Source: Candidatus Peregrinibacteria bacterium RIFOXYA2_FULL_41_18 (GTDB taxonomy: Bacteria; Patescibacteriota; Gracilibacteria; UBA1369; UBA12470). Taken from it: a stretch of 64,000 bases of DNA. The stretch is taken from NCBI GenBank assembly GCA_001788795.1, contig MFXH01000016.1, forward strand, positions 1-64,000, written 5' to 3'. The position numbers and the translations under genes were made by a program. Shown piece after piece: positions 46,006 through 64,000 of this stretch; the stretch's first letter is position 1, and each line of letters begins with the position of its first letter. Below the pieces are notes generated by a model that was given only the letters and a program-made list of their open reading frames with translations, was not told where the DNA came from and did not search any database.

Positions 46006-47574
46006 ATGCGAAACGAAAAGCTTTTACTGGAAATACTGAAAACAGCAATAGAAGAACGTCCGAAAGATGCAAAAGAGTTTCAGCGAATAAAAAACAGATT
46101 TTCAGGCGAACTTCAATCTTATTCGGCATCCAATTACGAACTGAATAAGTTCTATCAGGAAGCCGTAAAAAAAGGATTGCTGAAAGATGATCAAGCAATA
46201 AAAAAACTCATAAAAAAACGTACCGTAAGGTCATTATCAGGAGTCGCGATAATAACAGTACTGACTAAGCCATATCCATGCCCGGGAAAATGTGTATTTT
46301 GCCCAAACGAGAAAGGTATGCCAAAAAGCTACCTCTCAAATGAACCGGCGGCAATGAGAGCCCTACTTAACGACTTCGACCCAACCAAACAGATAGGGAA
46401 ACGATTGATAAGCTTGAAAAACCAAGGCCATCCAACAGACAAAATAGAGCTCATAGTACTTGGTGGAACTTTCTCTTTTTATCCAAAAAGATACCAAAAA
46501 GACTTCATAAGAAAATGTTTCAACGCCCTAAACGAAGGAGCGCCCGAAAAAACACTTGCACTGGCTCAGAAAAAGAATGAAAAAGCACTCCACAGGGTCG
46601 TTGGCCTAAGCCTTGAAACAAGACCGGACTTCGTCACAAAAGACGAAATTAGGTGGCTCAGAGAGCTGGGATGCACCAAGATTCAACTAGGGGTACAACA
46701 TCTGGACAACGAAATCCTTAAATATGTTAAACGCGGACACCTGAAAGAAGACTCAATTCGCGCGATTAAGCTTGCAAGAGACGCAGGCCTAAAAATCTGC
46801 CTGCACATAATGCCGAACCTACCGGGCAGCACACCTGCAAAGGATATAGAAGTTTTTAAGGAACTATTTGGCAACCAAGATTTTCGACCTGATTATCTCA
46901 AGATATATCCATGCACAGTCACTCCGTTTAGCGAACTAGAAACATGGTTCAAGAAAGGCAAATACAAGAGTTATACCGATAAAGAGTTACGAGATTTGAT
47001 AGTAAAAATAAAAGCACTGATTCCGGAATATGTAAGAATCGAACGACTTGTCCGCGACATACCGGGAGAAAGCATCCTTGAAGGAAGTCGAGTTACAAAC
47101 CTTAGACAAGAATTACAAAGGGAATATCCGAATATGAATTGCCGCTGCATACGTTGCCGCGAAATAAAAGGAGAAGAAATAGACCCGTCAAAGCTGGAAC
47201 TTAAGATTGAAGAGTTCGAAGCATCGAATGGAAGAGACTTTTTCATCTCTTATAACCAAAACGACAAAATCTGCTCGCTCTTAAGATTAAGATTTCCCTC
47301 ATTAGATCAAGTTGTTCCGGAAATAGATCCACATACAACTTCAATAATCCGCGAAGTACACACTTACGGTTCCCAACTAAAAATCGACAAAGAAAGCAGG
47401 GGAGAGGCGCAGCACATCGGACTTGGCAAGAAACTCATACTAAAAGCGGAGGAAATCTCGCGCAAAAACGGATATAAACGCATAGCGGTAATAAGCAGTA
47501 TCGGAACAAGAGAATACTATAAAAAATGGGGATTTAAGCTGAAAGGGACTTATATGGTGAAAAATCTAGGCTGA
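46006..47574 (+). CDS. elp3: Elp3-type tRNA uridine(34) modification enzyme (radical SAM + GNAT)
   Basis: 522 residues. The N-terminal tRNA-binding region is followed by a radical SAM domain with PYPCPGKCVFCPNE (Fe-S cysteines), VLGGTFSFYPKRYQKDFI, SLETRPDF and IQLGVQHLDNEILKYVKRGH. A zinc-binding linker NCRCIRCREI follows, then a C-terminal acetyltransferase domain (VREVHTYG-like REVHTYGSQL, HIGLGKKLILKAEEISRKNG, EYYKKWGFKLKGTYMVK). It makes 5-carboxymethyl-U34 from acetyl-CoA; bacterial homologues such as the Dehalococcoides enzyme are known. Stop is TGA. The gene is predicted leaderless. Confidence 0.95.
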   Translation: MRNEKLLLEILKTAIEERPKDAKEFQRIKNRFSGELQSYSASNYELNKFYQEAVKKGLLKDDQAIKKLIKKRTVRSLSGVAIITVLTKPYPCPGKCVFCPNEKGMPKSYLSNEPAAMRALLNDFDPTKQIGKRLISLKNQGHPTDKIELIVLGGTFSFYPKRYQKDFIRKCFNALNEGAPEKTLALAQKKNEKALHRVVGLSLETRPDFVTKDEIRWLRELGCTKIQLGVQHLDNEILKYVKRGHLKEDSIRAIKLARDAGLKICLHIMPNLPGSTPAKDIEVFKELFGNQDFRPDYLKIYPCTVTPFSELETWFKKGKYKSYTDKELRDLIVKIKALIPEYVRIERLVRDIPGESILEGSRVTNLRQELQREYPNMNCRCIRCREIKGEEIDPSKLELKIEEFEASNGRDFFISYNQNDKICSLLRLRFPSLDQVVPEIDPHTTSIIREVHTYGSQLKIDKESRGEAQHIGLGKKLILKAEEISRKNGYKRIAVISSIGTREYYKKWGFKLKGTYMVKNLG

Positions 47575-47578
47575 CGGA

Positions 47579-47607
47579 TTGCAAAAACAACCAAAAAGTG
47601 GTAAAAT
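47579..47607 (+). promoter_or_regulatory. Promoter of the giant gene
   Basis: TTGCAA (47579-47584), 17-nt spacer ending in TGG, TAAAAT (47602-47607), which is an extended -10. The leader to the ATG at 47630 is about 15 nt. Confidence 0.7.
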
Positions 47608-47629
47608 TACAAGATATAAAAATAAAAAA

Positions 47630-50600
47630 ATGCCACTTTTCAAAGAAAACAGACTGGTTTTTAAAGCTCCACAGCAAAAAGGTAAATCTGTTGAAGTTCC
47701 AAAAGAAGGTTCTGGCGAATCAAAGGAATCAAGTTTTCAAGAAGAAAGAAGAAGTCTTCTACTTGATACCATTGCCGAAAATATAGAAAAAAAAGACATA
47801 TTGAAAGAGGCTGGCAAAAGCAGAGCTGAACAAATAGAACTGGTTACAACAATAGACCTAGATAAGACTGAAAAAGAACAACAGTCCAATATAGACACGA
47901 TGGAAGGATTTTTACTTACCGGACTGCCAAAATTATTTGAAGCCGGAATCAAAATAGAAAAACTGACAGACGTACCAACTGCAATAGAACAAATAAATGA
48001 AAAAACAGCTGAAAAACTAGATCCGTACGGAGAAGTTCAGTCAATGATAGTACTGAGAAAAATTGCAAGCAATCCTTCATGCAAATTAGGAACTTCATGG
48101 GAATTTGAGAAGAAGATATTACCAAAAATCAAGGAGGACTACGAAAGAGCGGTTAAATTACGAGATACAAAAGTCGAAGATGTAAAAGAAGAGGAACCAA
48201 AAGACTTTTTCGGCAAAATGATAAAATGGATAAAAGACAATAAAAAAGCTGTTATAGGAGCTGTAGCTCTGGCTGGAGCAATAGGAGCAGGCGTATATGT
48301 TTACAAGAAAATCAAAAACAAAACAGATTCAAATCTCATAAAATTCGGCGCAACAGGATTGAGTGCCATAAGCACCGGCCTTGTACTTGGATCAATACTT
48401 GGAACAGATGGATGGAAAGAATGGATTAACGAAAAACTTGGAACAAATTTCGCGCTTACAAACATTCTCGAAGCAATTCCATACCTTTTCAAAGGAGAAT
48501 TCGTAAAAGCTTGGGAAATTCTGAGAAGAGGCGAAGTGGAAATCGATCCGGTATCAAAACTTATAGCCAAACGTCTTGATATAGATGCGGAGAAAGTAGC
48601 ACTTCTAAGAGATCAGGATCTTGATAAATTTATGAGCAAAGGGAACGAACTTTTAACAAAAACCATCGAAACCGGAACAGAAATAGGAACATCTATCCTG
48701 TCTGTGATTTCACCATCAAAAGAACAAACATTCATCGGTGAAAATCTAGAAGAAAAAGATAAGTTGGTAAAAGCTGAAAAAGCATTAATAGAGTATTTCA
48801 AAAGACCGGATATAGAAAAAGCAATTTCGGAAATGTCTCCAAAACCAAAAACAATAGGAGAATTACTGGACGAATTATCAAGACAAGGCTATCTAAATAC
48901 TGCCGGAGTCGCCGCAGCTCCAAGAACACCTGACGAATCAAAAGATTCCAAAGAAAAACCGGAAGATCAAGAGCTTGGAATATTTGTAGATGGAGGAAGC
49001 TGGGAAAGATTCAAAGATCTCGGAACAGATCATTTCCCAAAAACAGCAGAGCATTTGGGAAGCTTCATCGAAAGCCCAGGTAAAAGCTTAATAAGCATGG
49101 ATTTTTATTCAGGATTGATTACTTCGGTAAAAGAAGATGGAGGAGCTTTAATGTCGATAGGCGGAATCCTTTATTTGGTAAAAGATGGATATACATTTTT
49201 TGCTCTCGGCTCATCTGAAATAATTTTAAATTCGCTTAAAGAACTTGGCGAAGCGTTCATGTTTGAAGACGAATCCTATCTTGATGCCGGAAAAAGCTGG
49301 GTAAAAGACAGCATGGGATTTGTTGTAATAATGTCAGCCTTTAGAATAACAACAGGGTTAGCAGAAGCTATTTACAATAACATAAAACATTCGGAAGCAG
49401 GCAAGCAAAGACCAATAATCAGAAGTATTGGAAGAGGCGCGTTGCAAGGCACATTGGAAGGCATAGCCATGCCTGTAACGGTAGTAAAAGCACACGTATT
49501 CGGCGGTCAAGCCTCATATAGATTTATAAAAGATACAAAACTTGGACGAGATATTGCGGCGGCAGATGAAGCCCTGAAAACGCTTACGAGGAATGGTATT
49601 TCAACGGAATCAGATCAGTTTAGATCTGCCGTAGAAACAGCAAGTTCTGCAAAAATGCAAAGACTTAGATTCTATGCGGAAATATATAAGAAATATAACG
49701 ACATATACGAACAAACCAGAGGATTAAGCCTATCAAACCCCGGTAAAAAAGCATGGGCGGAAGCGAATCTGGCAAGAATCGAATCATTAAGGAAGTCATA
49801 CGCATTAAAATTTTCAAAATTATACGGGGAAATGCATCAAGCAGGACTATTACCTGAAGAGTTTGAAGCAATCAACGAAGATATGTCAAAAGAGAATCCA
49901 AGCAAGGTAAAAACACACACGGAAAAAATCATCGAATTGGCAAGACAAAAAGAAGCACAAGCTAGGGAAACAAGAATCACTGAGCGTACTCAAGAAATCA
50001 GGAAACTAAGAAAAAGTGGCAAACTAAACGAATCGGGAATAAAAGGATTATCGAATATAAATACCGATGAAATCCTTGAATCTAGGGGAATAGATCCGAA
50101 CAGTACTAGAGCGGAAGCCTATTTGGAAGAATGGGATAAACGCATGGCTGAACAAATGGAAACAGGACGTAGTGTGAATCCAAGACTCGATTTCAAATTT
50201 GAAGGCGCAAAGCCATCTATAGAGTTGAGAATTGGAAAATCCGGACAAATGACAGCGAGATACCTTGGCACAGAAATACCTATGGAAGGAATCAAAGAAT
50301 CGGCAATCACAAATCCAACACTAGCAGAACTCGCTGATGTTAGAGCTCAATGTGAAGCAAAATGGAAACTTACAGCGGAAGCCCTAACTCAAGCGGATTA
50401 TGTTTATAAAAACGGAAAATTCGAATTAACATTAAACGGACAAGAACTTCCGGAAGGAATTCTTGATGGAGCGGATAGTATAGAAGCGGCAACAAAGAGA
50501 TATGTACAAGCATTGGAAGACGGGGGGATGGAAGTGCCAAAAGATTTCGTCAGAAATATGGCTAAATATGGAACATGCATCCCACAATTGGAAATAGCTC

Positions 50601-51688
50601 TAGGTACGGCAGGTGCTGCATTCATGTTGTATGAAATAGAGACAGCAGAAGACAAGAAGGCAACATTGATAAAACAAATGACTCTTCTTGGAACAGGCCT
50701 GTACGCAGCAGGAAAATTTGAAAAAAAATGGGGCTACAAAATCAAAAATCCGTGGCTGAATTTTTTCGGCGCATTATTGGCAGGAATTATTGGTGCAACT
50801 CTTGGCGATAAAATGATAGAGCCGATCGTCCAAGAAATAACACCTAACATACCTGGAATTAACGGAATAAGCTTAGAACTTGGTGAAATACTCTCAAGAT
50901 ATGTAGGATATAAGTTCACGATCAAGCCGGCTATAGAATTAGCATCAAGGAAAGGCTTAACAAGAGGAATCGAGCGTCAATTGGCAAGATATATGGAAAG
51001 AACAGTTATGAAAGAAAGCACAAACAAAGGAATTCGAGCCGCAATAAAAAGAATCGTAACAAGCCAAGTAATAAAGAGAGTAATCATAGCGGCAGTCGGA
51101 CCAAAAAGAGCAGCTGCAATACTCGCATGTTTCGCAGATGACGTCGTAGGATTCTCTCCATACGCACCCGTAGCCATAATAACAGATATAGTCGGCGCAG
51201 GCATGTTGATATGGTCAGGATGGGATATTTATCAAGCTATAGCTGTTTATATGAATGCTGTTAAATTAGACAAAGAACTAACAGCCAGAGACGGCTTAAA
51301 AATAAAAGAAGATTCAATAAGAATAATGGAGCCTGAAGTGATAGAAGAAATTGAAGAAAAAGGAATATCTCTCGGAGATTTAAGTCAAAACGAACAAGCA
51401 TTTTTCGACTTCTTAGCTCGCCAACCAAAAGTAACAATAGAAATGGGACGAGAGGGGAGAGTAGGCTTGGAAAGATGGACTTTTGAAAACGGCGTAGCTA
51501 CAGGTATAGAAATATGGAATGGGAAAGAAAAAATAGCATCGATAACAGGCATGGATGCGGAAATGATGGAAGAAGGCGCTCATGAAATAGAAAGACAACA
51601 TCCGGAACTAACGTCAAGTGGCGGAGGAGATCTATTGTCAGAAACAGACACGGCCGGAAACAAACAAGTGGAAAAGATGGCCGCATAA
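47630..51688 (+). CDS. Giant hypothetical protein with several Gly-rich hydrophobic segments
   Basis: 1352 residues from ATG 47630; an in-frame TTG at 47579 is the -35 box and unlikely to be a start. No family is recognised and there is no signal peptide. The first 190 residues are helical and charged. Hydrophobic, Gly/Ala-rich stretches occur near 205-225 (AVIGAVALAGAIGAGVYVY), 236-260, 509-530, 985-1003, 1042-1062 (FFGALLAGIIGATLG) and 1180-1207 (AIITDIVGAGMLIWSGW). A coiled, Arg/Glu-rich middle lies near 740-860 (KIIELARQKEAQARETRITE). The tail is Ser/Gly-rich and polar. The pattern suggests an internal membrane-associated or membrane-inserting protein; this is inference only. Composition matches the neighbours. 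Confidence 0.75.
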   Translation: MPLFKENRLVFKAPQQKGKSVEVPKEGSGESKESSFQEERRSLLLDTIAENIEKKDILKEAGKSRAEQIELVTTIDLDKTEKEQQSNIDTMEGFLLTGLPKLFEAGIKIEKLTDVPTAIEQINEKTAEKLDPYGEVQSMIVLRKIASNPSCKLGTSWEFEKKILPKIKEDYERAVKLRDTKVEDVKEEEPKDFFGKMIKWIKDNKKAVIGAVALAGAIGAGVYVYKKIKNKTDSNLIKFGATGLSAISTGLVLGSILGTDGWKEWINEKLGTNFALTNILEAIPYLFKGEFVKAWEILRRGEVEIDPVSKLIAKRLDIDAEKVALLRDQDLDKFMSKGNELLTKTIETGTEIGTSILSVISPSKEQTFIGENLEEKDKLVKAEKALIEYFKRPDIEKAISEMSPKPKTIGELLDELSRQGYLNTAGVAAAPRTPDESKDSKEKPEDQELGIFVDGGSWERFKDLGTDHFPKTAEHLGSFIESPGKSLISMDFYSGLITSVKEDGGALMSIGGILYLVKDGYTFFALGSSEIILNSLKELGEAFMFEDESYLDAGKSWVKDSMGFVVIMSAFRITTGLAEAIYNNIKHSEAGKQRPIIRSIGRGALQGTLEGIAMPVTVVKAHVFGGQASYRFIKDTKLGRDIAAADEALKTLTRNGISTESDQFRSAVETASSAKMQRLRFYAEIYKKYNDIYEQTRGLSLSNPGKKAWAEANLARIESLRKSYALKFSKLYGEMHQAGLLPEEFEAINEDMSKENPSKVKTHTEKIIELARQKEAQARETRITERTQEIRKLRKSGKLNESGIKGLSNINTDEILESRGIDPNSTRAEAYLEEWDKRMAEQMETGRSVNPRLDFKFEGAKPSIELRIGKSGQMTARYLGTEIPMEGIKESAITNPTLAELADVRAQCEAKWKLTAEALTQADYVYKNGKFELTLNGQELPEGILDGADSIEAATKRYVQALEDGGMEVPKDFVRNMAKYGTCIPQLEIALGTAGAAFMLYEIETAEDKKATLIKQMTLLGTGLYAAGKFEKKWGYKIKNPWLNFFGALLAGIIGATLGDKMIEPIVQEITPNIPGINGISLELGEILSRYVGYKFTIKPAIELASRKGLTRGIERQLARYMERTVMKESTNKGIRAAIKRIVTSQVIKRVIIAAVGPKRAAAILACFADDVVGFSPYAPVAIITDIVGAGMLIWSGWDIYQAIAVYMNAVKLDKELTARDGLKIKEDSIRIMEPEVIEEIEEKGISLGDLSQNEQAFFDFLARQPKVTIEMGREGRVGLERWTFENGVATGIEIWNGKEKIASITGMDAEMMEEGAHEIERQHPELTSSGGGDLLSETDTAGNKQVEKMAA

Positions 51689-63106: not shown

Positions 63107-64000
63107 TTATTTGGTTAAGAAGTTAATATGCTGCTTTTCACGCAAACCATTTGCAAACCTATGCGCTTCATCAATCACCCTCATCAATAAATAAAAAACA
63201 TTGGAATCAGCCTTAATATCTGTCTCTTTTATCTCGCCGTCAAACACAAAAACTTTTTTACCACTCTTATCTAGCGATATAAGAGGAATTTTTGAGTTAA
63301 AAGCTCCCCAAACTTTCGCAACAGATGACAACTGCCCCCTACCTCCATCTATCAAAACCAAATCGGGTCGAACAGAAAAAGATTTATCAACCTTTTTTTC
63401 ATAAACAAAATAAGCCAAAACATTGCAACTTATCGTACAATTACTATCAAGTTCCTTAACAAAAGACGGAACTTCTCTAATAAGTCTGAAACCGAATTTT
63501 TCATAAAAACCTGCGTTTTTCGGATGACAACCGATATAAATTCTTTTAGCCTTGGACCTTTTAACCAAAGCATGCAGAATGAGATGTCCCAATCCGGTAC
63601 CTCTCATTTTTTTATCAACAAACAATGACGAAATAACATCCCTATTTCCAAAACGAATCAACCTGCCACATCCCACAATCTTCTTCCCTGACTCGACAAC
63701 AACAAAATCTCTCATCACCATATTAACTGAATTCAATCCTTCACGATCGAGCATTTTCTTAACAACCTTCTCGTCTTTCTTAAGCCCTTTTCTTGCAATC
63801 ACACGCGAAACCGAGGGCGCATATAAATACTTAAGCCTCCTGCTCAAAACTTCAATCAAAGAAGCATAATCATCAATCTTTTTATCCTTCAGGCTTTTAA
63901 TATTAAAACTCCTATAATCACCATTCTTAGGCTCGCCATTCTCCATCACAGCCATCGACCCGACAGTAAACTCTCCATTCATATGAGAAATATCATATCC
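63107..64000 (-). CDS. uvrC: UvrC C-terminal nuclease half with inserted GNAT acetyltransferase domain (5' end beyond window)
   Basis: The frame is open through the right edge: codons before the Met at 63982 read GYDISH, giving UvrC's DIS(H) strand. Then come EFTVGSMAVMENGEPKNGDY and SFNIKSLKDKKIDDYASLIE, classic UvrC C-terminal endonuclease. At about 63823 the UvrC match stops. The next ~147 codons encode a GNAT domain with an intact acetyl-CoA loop (VDKKMRGTGLGHLIL) and KNAGFYEKFGF. UvrC resumes at RPDLVLIDGGRGQLSSVAKV and ends MRVIDEAHRFANGLREKQ. The nuclease residues remain: Asp of YDISH, Asp of LIDGG, Asp and His of DEAHRF. The C-terminal (HhH)2 DNA-binding domain is missing. The nucleotide-excision repair role is established for the family; the acetylation role is unknown. 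Confidence 0.88.
   Translation of the reverse strand, partial: GYDISHMNGEFTVGSMAVMENGEPKNGDYRSFNIKSLKDKKIDDYASLIEVLSRRLKYLYAPSVSRVIARKGLKKDEKVVKKMLDREGLNSVNMVMRDFVVVESGKKIVGCGRLIRFGNRDVISSLFVDKKMRGTGLGHLILHALVKRSKAKRIYIGCHPKNAGFYEKFGFRLIREVPSFVKELDSNCTISCNVLAYFVYEKKVDKSFSVRPDLVLIDGGRGQLSSVAKVWGAFNSKIPLISLDKSGKKVFVFDGEIKETDIKADSNVFYLLMRVIDEAHRFANGLREKQHINFLTK

Follow-up and report, generated by a model that had tools for sequence, protein, structure and literature searches.

The window, that is, the whole stretch of 64,000 nucleotides that was analysed, derives from a genome of 1.24 Mb with a completeness of 99% and ends within a uvrC gene on the minus strand. The gene is a single frame of 700 amino acids; it occupies positions 63107 to 65209 and thus extends beyond the window. 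With a whole-protein score of 464 bits, its product exceeds the cut-off of the UvrC family model TIGR00194 (285 bits). The Pfam domains found above cut-off are GIY-YIG, UVR, PF22920, and PF08459, the latter being split in two, and the GNAT matches of Pfam fall between both PF08459 pieces. The features of this locus are the following:

63107..64000, minus strand: C-terminal part of uvrC, residues 404-700 (TIGR00194, 464 bits)
63836..64000, minus strand: first half of the RNase H nuclease domain, residues 404-458 in the window (PF08459, 2nrt alignment, model)
63992-63994, minus strand: D406 of DISH, in the first half of the RNase H domain
63368..63835, minus strand: inserted segment, residues 459-614 (alignments including 2nrt)
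63395..63805, minus strand: GNAT fold, residues 469-605 (AlphaFold2 model)
63587..63604, minus strand: acetyl-CoA pyrophosphate loop RGTGLG, R536-G541 (sequence, conservation)
63488..63508, minus strand: FYEKFGF, residues 568-574 (alignment)
63110..63367, minus strand: second half of the RNase H nuclease domain, residues 615-700 (Pfam, 2nrt alignment, model)
63347-63349, minus strand: D621, in the second half of the RNase H domain
63161-63163, minus strand: H683, in the second half of the RNase H domain

The inserted segment takes the place of a linker of 7-37 residues that is found in the 35 insert-less UvrC proteins compared; in the UvrC protein of T. maritima, four residues are present at this position (2nrt alignment). 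In the AlphaFold2 model (mean pLDDT 86), the GNAT fold comprises approximately residues 469-605 and is located between helix α1 (residues 447-462, most of which lie in the first RNase H half within the window) and strand β4 of the RNase H domain. Residues D406, D621, and H683, which we take to be the DDH catalytic residues of the UvrC 5' nuclease, align to 2nrt and are invariant in alignment A3, which takes in 102 of the 125 proteins fetched; Y569, G573, and F574 of the FYEKFGF motif are likewise invariant there. The first-pass annotation had proposed one uninterrupted UvrC-GNAT-UvrC frame, in which a complete GNAT domain is placed between the first and second catalytic aspartates and the nuclease residues are kept, and all of this is borne out by the intact frame, the predicted GNAT fold with both of its motifs, and the comparison with 2nrt. 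The RGTGLG loop fits the acyl-CoA P-loop consensus Gln/Arg-x-x-Gly-x-Gly/Ala as given in the available part of PMC4964394. The nearest folds to the inserted GNAT are amino-acid acetyltransferases, namely ArgA/N-acetylglutamate synthase (2r8v, 5yge); its nearest PDB sequence match is human GNA1 (glucosamine-6-phosphate N-acetyltransferase; 2huz, 3cxp), with an E value of only 1.6e-5. In the window's lineage, the inserted GNAT has probably remained an acetyl-CoA enzyme, for which acyl transfer is predicted.

The C-terminal (HhH)2 domain is absent from the window's UvrC, where a tail of 15 residues follows DEAHRF. This domain is usual and not universal, a short tail being found also in 5 of 35 insert-less UvrC proteins. 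Since the family model and the nuclease features agree with UvrC, the protein is filed as such despite the absent domain. No Hint/intein family is among its Pfam matches. Elsewhere in the window, a PF13508 match at 47404 belongs to the ordinary GNAT domain of an Elp3-like protein (46006-47574, plus strand; named from sequence); this gene is directly followed by a frame of 1369 amino acids (47579-51688, plus strand) for a large, partly membrane-like protein.

GNAT-in-UvrC is a genuine fusion, and one that is both old and common within the window's class. The nuclease domain was found in 182 of the 192 sampled genomes of the class, and it is interrupted in all 34 genomes of the window's order in this sample. 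Not counting the window's own cluster, 15 public protein clusters show the same architecture, as do further genomes of the class, and the named public relatives are Gracilibacteria, Peregrinibacteria, or Patescibacteria. All of the best 120 of 6439 public proteins matching the GNAT-bearing profile carry the insert, which is partly so by construction. Outside the class, a split nuclease match was obtained in six genomes of the phylum sample, five of which could be judged at the site (all but G316, L087); the count covers split matches and does not include four single matches of 648-705 nt (G214, G300, G333, and G388). A window-type GNAT is inserted at the same site in G209 and G245, which belong to one family outside the class; in G201, G204, and G384, the match is split and the site is occupied by a linker of 10-16 amino acids. 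Two public UvrC proteins with the window-type GNAT (P0059, P0069) are labelled Nitrospirae/Nitrospirota at their source, which would reflect either transfer or a mis-binned contig. In the genomes where TGA encodes an amino acid (families f20, f24, f28, and f29), 17 UvrC proteins were read, and these have a linker of 7-11 amino acids without insert. Within the open-licence PMC literature, no paper was found that deals with a GNAT inside UvrC or with comparable inserts in this group; the first-pass annotation knew of no described function for such a fusion.

Besides the window-type GNAT, the site between α1 and β4 has taken up four other passengers, which are unrelated to it or were acquired separately. 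The sample consisted of 85 UvrC cores, made up of the class-search matches listed with coordinates, a hand-picked set, and one further locus; of the 86 UvrC proteins read, all but L087 entered the tree, which is a quick one and does not contain L107-L111 and L148-L166. A linker of 7-37 amino acids is present in 35 cores, and 38 contain the window-type GNAT (GNAT-A), 22 of them with and 16 without the acetyl-CoA loop. A second GNAT type is found in three cores, which form a single clade with support of 100. One core each carries a DUF559 nuclease (PF04480; E 8e-35), a nucleotidyltransferase-like domain (PF10706; E 1.7e-6), and a serine hydrolase (PF06821; E 7.6e-12; genome G008). The remaining six inserts (L045, L064, L072, L073, L082, L085) are beyond the reach of the profile and may be decayed GNATs. 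On the tree, the second GNAT, the DUF559, and the nucleotidyltransferase inserts are placed among insert-less relatives of one family (f16). L018 has a linker of 25 amino acids and yet is found among GNAT bearers, a position that suggests loss of the insert. Two GNAT units each are present in L062, P0106, and P0109, and perhaps in L060.

Concerning the origin of these domains, the nucleotidyltransferase-like insert matched nothing but itself in the 192 genomes, and a public search with the insert only, directed at a free-standing close parent, yielded one match among 79 candidates, which is a UvrC fragment. Weak free-standing GNAT relatives exist within the class, two of which (L112, L113) also possess an RGxKLG loop and a YYxxxGF motif. 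The window-type GNAT gave 74 match rows in 72 of the 192 genomes. Eight of these rows lie in frames of 139-172 amino acids and the other 66 in frames of 338-1029 amino acids, all those read being UvrC; thus, among the long frames read in the 192 genomes, no host protein other than UvrC was met. UvrC may be special for the window-type GNAT, because this type was met only there or free-standing.

Relatives of two of the other passengers reside in further housekeeping proteins. In the class search, the second GNAT type was also detected inside frames of 1406, 1490, and 1805 amino acids, which are isoleucyl-tRNA synthetases (IleRS) of three genomes; there it sits within the catalytic domain, and in two of the three a histidine phosphatase follows further on. 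Relatives of the hydrolase from the G008 UvrC are found in LeuRS of five genomes and in IleRS of G138, in the latter at the loop that holds the GNAT in other IleRS. In UvrB of G008, whose UvrC also holds the hydrolase, a hydrolase relative adjoins a histidine phosphatase. Histidine phosphatase is present inside open frames of at least 900 amino acids in at least 55 of the 192 genomes (at least 56 if a match spanning TGA is counted), the hosts looked at being IleRS, ValRS, and UvrB. Twelve further loci that were read comprise three ValRS (L133, L136, L138) and nine IleRS, with 11 of the 12 synthetase names taken from NCBIfam above cut-off and that of L134 from Pfam and motifs; two of the IleRS with histidine phosphatase (L128, L129) belong to the window's order. 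In many genomes of the class, IleRS contains a histidine phosphatase, a GNAT, or a serine hydrolase in frame (loci L104, L105, L106, L122, L128-L132, L134, L135, L137, and L139); L134 contains three histidine phosphatase stretches in one frame of 1572 amino acids, and L106 shows a MuF_C-like match as well. A serine hydrolase is contained in the LeuRS loci L121 and L124-L127, and serine hydrolase and histidine phosphatase are arranged in tandem in the UvrB locus L123. In the window's own genome, there is no sign of an insert in IleRS, ValRS, and LeuRS (frames of 1065, 876, and 811 amino acids, identified solely by their length and position in the family search), and no histidine phosphatase was matched at E 1e-10.

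Insert and host do not always share their descent. The window's cluster (P0001) shares 86% of its core residues with P0004, compared with 56% of those in the GNAT. Between P0001 and P0002, P0003, and P0005, the core is 60-61% identical and the GNAT 67-70%, and in no other pairs of the 102-row alignment does the GNAT exceed the core by as much as in these three; by simple arithmetic, a GNAT identity of about 38% would be expected at a core identity of 61% under the usual rate ratio. Sliding identity shifts near residues 460-470 and 605-615, which are the insert borders. A further pair, P0033 and P0040, shows 93% identity in the core and 55% in the GNAT. Unequal rates could explain a core that is more conserved than the GNAT, but hardly the reverse pattern. 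These identities indicate that the GNAT of the window's family has its own inheritance, which disagrees with the descent of the host. The correlation between insert and core distances is weak but exceeds chance (Mantel r 0.199, a value reached in 23 of 999 permutations). In 26 of 36 cases, the closest insert belongs to the same family; L060 and L062 were left out of both comparisons. Inheritance of the insert would thus be largely vertical, exchange being shown only in some pairs.

Terminal repeats were rejected as a general insertion mechanism, since only two of 14 inserts (L038, L123) are notable in this respect. At the window's insert, the longest inverted repeat has 6 nt and the longest direct repeat 7 nt, equal to random windows, and notable repeats are missing at 12 of the 14 insert boundaries tested. 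Among the nine UvrC inserts tested, the DUF559 insert of L038 alone stands out, with an inverted repeat of 15 nt, a length reached by 1% of random windows; the UvrB insert of L123 stands out by a direct repeat of 11 nt. The repeat at the bounds of the DUF559 insert (L038:1991-2521) is perfect and is flanked by GC-rich, stem-loop-like repeats, which gives this insert the look of a mobile element.

The state of the acetyl-CoA loop varies considerably. In 168 aligned GNAT stretches from 164 of 173 inserts, the full consensus is present in 25; in 109, R/Q and the last G/A are kept and the middle G is gone, and 34 keep less of the loop (one, in L060, misses the loop region), these counts including near-identical pairs (e.g., L043 and P0014) and depending on a profile alignment that can slip in far relatives. 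R/Q is kept in 140 of the 168 stretches. As most stretches retain R and the last G, most inserts may bind acetyl-CoA. Human GNA1 has the loop RGKQLG, which is similar to the RGKKLG common among the insert's relatives; absence of the middle G therefore does not by itself imply inactivity. According to the available part of PMC4964394, the inactive GNAT domain of Eis is devoid of the loop R/Q and some active GNATs have atypical loops; loss of R/Q is more telling than loss of the middle G. On the tree, the loop-less state requires 11 changes, at least seven of which are forced by starred branches.

At the amino acid level, the GNAT diverges 1.96 times as much as the core (median of 2160 pairs). 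In three pairs of one genus (dS 0.56-1.45), dN/dS is 0.17-0.22 for the insert versus 0.05-0.06 for the core. Values of 0.07 versus 0.05 were obtained for the pair L046-L157, in which the loop is lost, and of 0.05 versus 0.06 for L153-L154; in L041-L148, with saturated dS, both insert and core are at 0.02, and the loop-less insert of L069-L081 is at 0.29. Saturation of dS applies to many of the pairs used. Purifying selection shows that the insert matters; in several pairs it is weaker than on the host, in some it is equal. Because the insert of L046-L157 is still constrained after loop loss, the constraint is not everywhere one for acetyl-CoA binding. GNAT-A inserts are basic, with a mean net charge of +9.8 with and +9.4 without the loop.

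Several explanations have to be weighed against this background. That two genes were fused by an artefact of assembly or gene prediction is extremely improbable: an assembly join is refuted by the recurrence of the architecture in the other public clusters and class genomes, dN/dS is well under 1 for insert and core in the pairs computed, one confident model spans the protein, and no support for a join was found. The idea that excision repair is linked to acetylation, as had been suggested from the sequence of the locus, would have the GNAT acetylate UvrC, UvrB, or another repair protein, or sense acetyl-CoA, and thereby tune the 5' incision. The finding of the window-type GNAT, among the frames read, solely in UvrC or free-standing, the retention of loop and Y569 in the window's family, and a purifying selection that in some pairs equals that on the core are in line with such a partnership. 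It is nevertheless quite improbable, given that unrelated passengers occupy the same site, that the loop was lost repeatedly with insert and nuclease remaining, that some UvrC proteins of the class have no insert, L018 even being placed beside GNAT-bearing relatives, that the nearest folds are amino-acid acetyltransferases, and that no repair-related GNAT fusion was found in the open-licence PMC literature. Together with the passenger relatives in IleRS, LeuRS, and UvrB and the GNAT's own inheritance, these observations leave the proposed link unsupported.

It is also unlikely that the insert has become a structural module of UvrC, or one contacting DNA or UvrB, with acetyl-CoA binding as a relic that decays by lineage. 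Such a role would accord with the retention of loop-less inserts in 16 of the 38 GNAT-A cores and their constraint in L046-L157 and L069-L081, with the basic charge irrespective of the loop, and with the lack of the DNA-binding (HhH)2 tail in the window's protein. Against it stand the loop R/Q retained in the great majority of aligned stretches and the circumstance that domains as different as DUF559 and the hydrolase would need to do the same job. If a tail of at least 60 residues is used as a stand-in for (HhH)2, 31 of 50 insert bearers have a long and 19 a short one, compared with 30 and 5 of the 35 proteins without insert; since long tails occur with insert and short ones without, the insert does not simply replace (HhH)2, and its role as a substitute for the lost tail is not supported.

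The GNAT in the window's 700-amino acid UvrC is probably an exchangeable passenger enzyme, a separate predicted fold not built for excision repair, because in relatives this site of UvrC is occupied by enzyme domains of quite different kinds. A compact domain would be tolerated in the α1-β4 loop, as this loop joins the end of β4 that is remote from the catalytic D621, and cassettes would arrive and be exchanged by in-frame recombination. In the window's lineage, the GNAT would still bind acetyl-CoA and acetylate some acceptor, perhaps an amino-acid-like small molecule as in the case of ArgA/N-acetylglutamate synthase, its nearest structural relatives. UvrC would go on cutting DNA, with nuclease and GNAT activities uncoupled; once inside, the segment would probably be kept by purifying selection on folding, even without the acetyl-CoA loop. 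The age and wide distribution of the GNAT type in the class and its presence in two genomes outside speak against a passenger, as do the purifying selection on the insert, the loop R and last G kept in most stretches, the largely vertical inheritance, and the lack of mobile-element ends at the window's insert; the strongest point against it is that this type was met in no other host among the frames read. More tentatively, loops of UvrC, UvrB, IleRS, ValRS, and LeuRS might serve the whole class as docking sites, receiving exchangeable enzyme cassettes (GNAT, histidine phosphatase, serine hydrolase, DUF559 nuclease, nucleotidyltransferase) that move in-frame between hosts and alleles, GNAT-in-UvrC being the oldest and most widespread case. 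If true, protein domains in the essential genes of very small genomes would come close to behaving as mobile cassettes. Protein engineering would gain natural insertion sites already tested by evolution, and there would be a warning that a fused domain need not belong to the pathway of its host.

Compared with known systems, the window's protein shares with UvrC (TIGR00194) the GIY-YIG, UVR, PF22920, and RNase H domains, the DDH residues, and a score above cut-off; it differs by the GNAT inside the RNase H domain and by the lack of the (HhH)2 tail. The fold of the inserted GNAT resembles the acetyltransferase domain of ArgA/N-acetylglutamate synthase (2r8v, 5yge), but it is embedded in a nuclease, and its scores are far below the family cut-offs (PRK07922, 31.1 versus 180 bits; PRK07757, 32.7 versus 154 bits). 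Human GNA1, in contrast, is a free-standing enzyme. Rickettsial palindromic elements are short repeats that land in-frame inside protein genes; in-frame landing is alike here, whereas whole enzyme domains are concerned and 12 of 14 boundaries are without notable repeats. NCBIfam already lists, as a named exception, IleRS carrying an N-acetyltransferase domain (NF040702, ileS_w_GNAT), but the three GNAT-bearing IleRS described here, at 240-295 bits, remain far short of the cut-off of 1999 for that model; the available part of PMC6331615, which deals with IleRS and GNAT, describes separate enzymes and no fusion. RNase H-like proteins with inserted domains include PARN (R3H) and the Hermes transposase (helical domain), and insertions between α1 and β4 are relatively rare, as stated in the part of PMC3985635 at hand. 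UvrC is alike in receiving a foreign domain in the RNase H fold, but here several unrelated enzymes share the one site between α1 and β4. Domain insertion itself is known; what sets this case apart is that a rare insertion place of the RNase H fold has received several unrelated enzymes, relatives of some of which reside in tRNA synthetases and UvrB.
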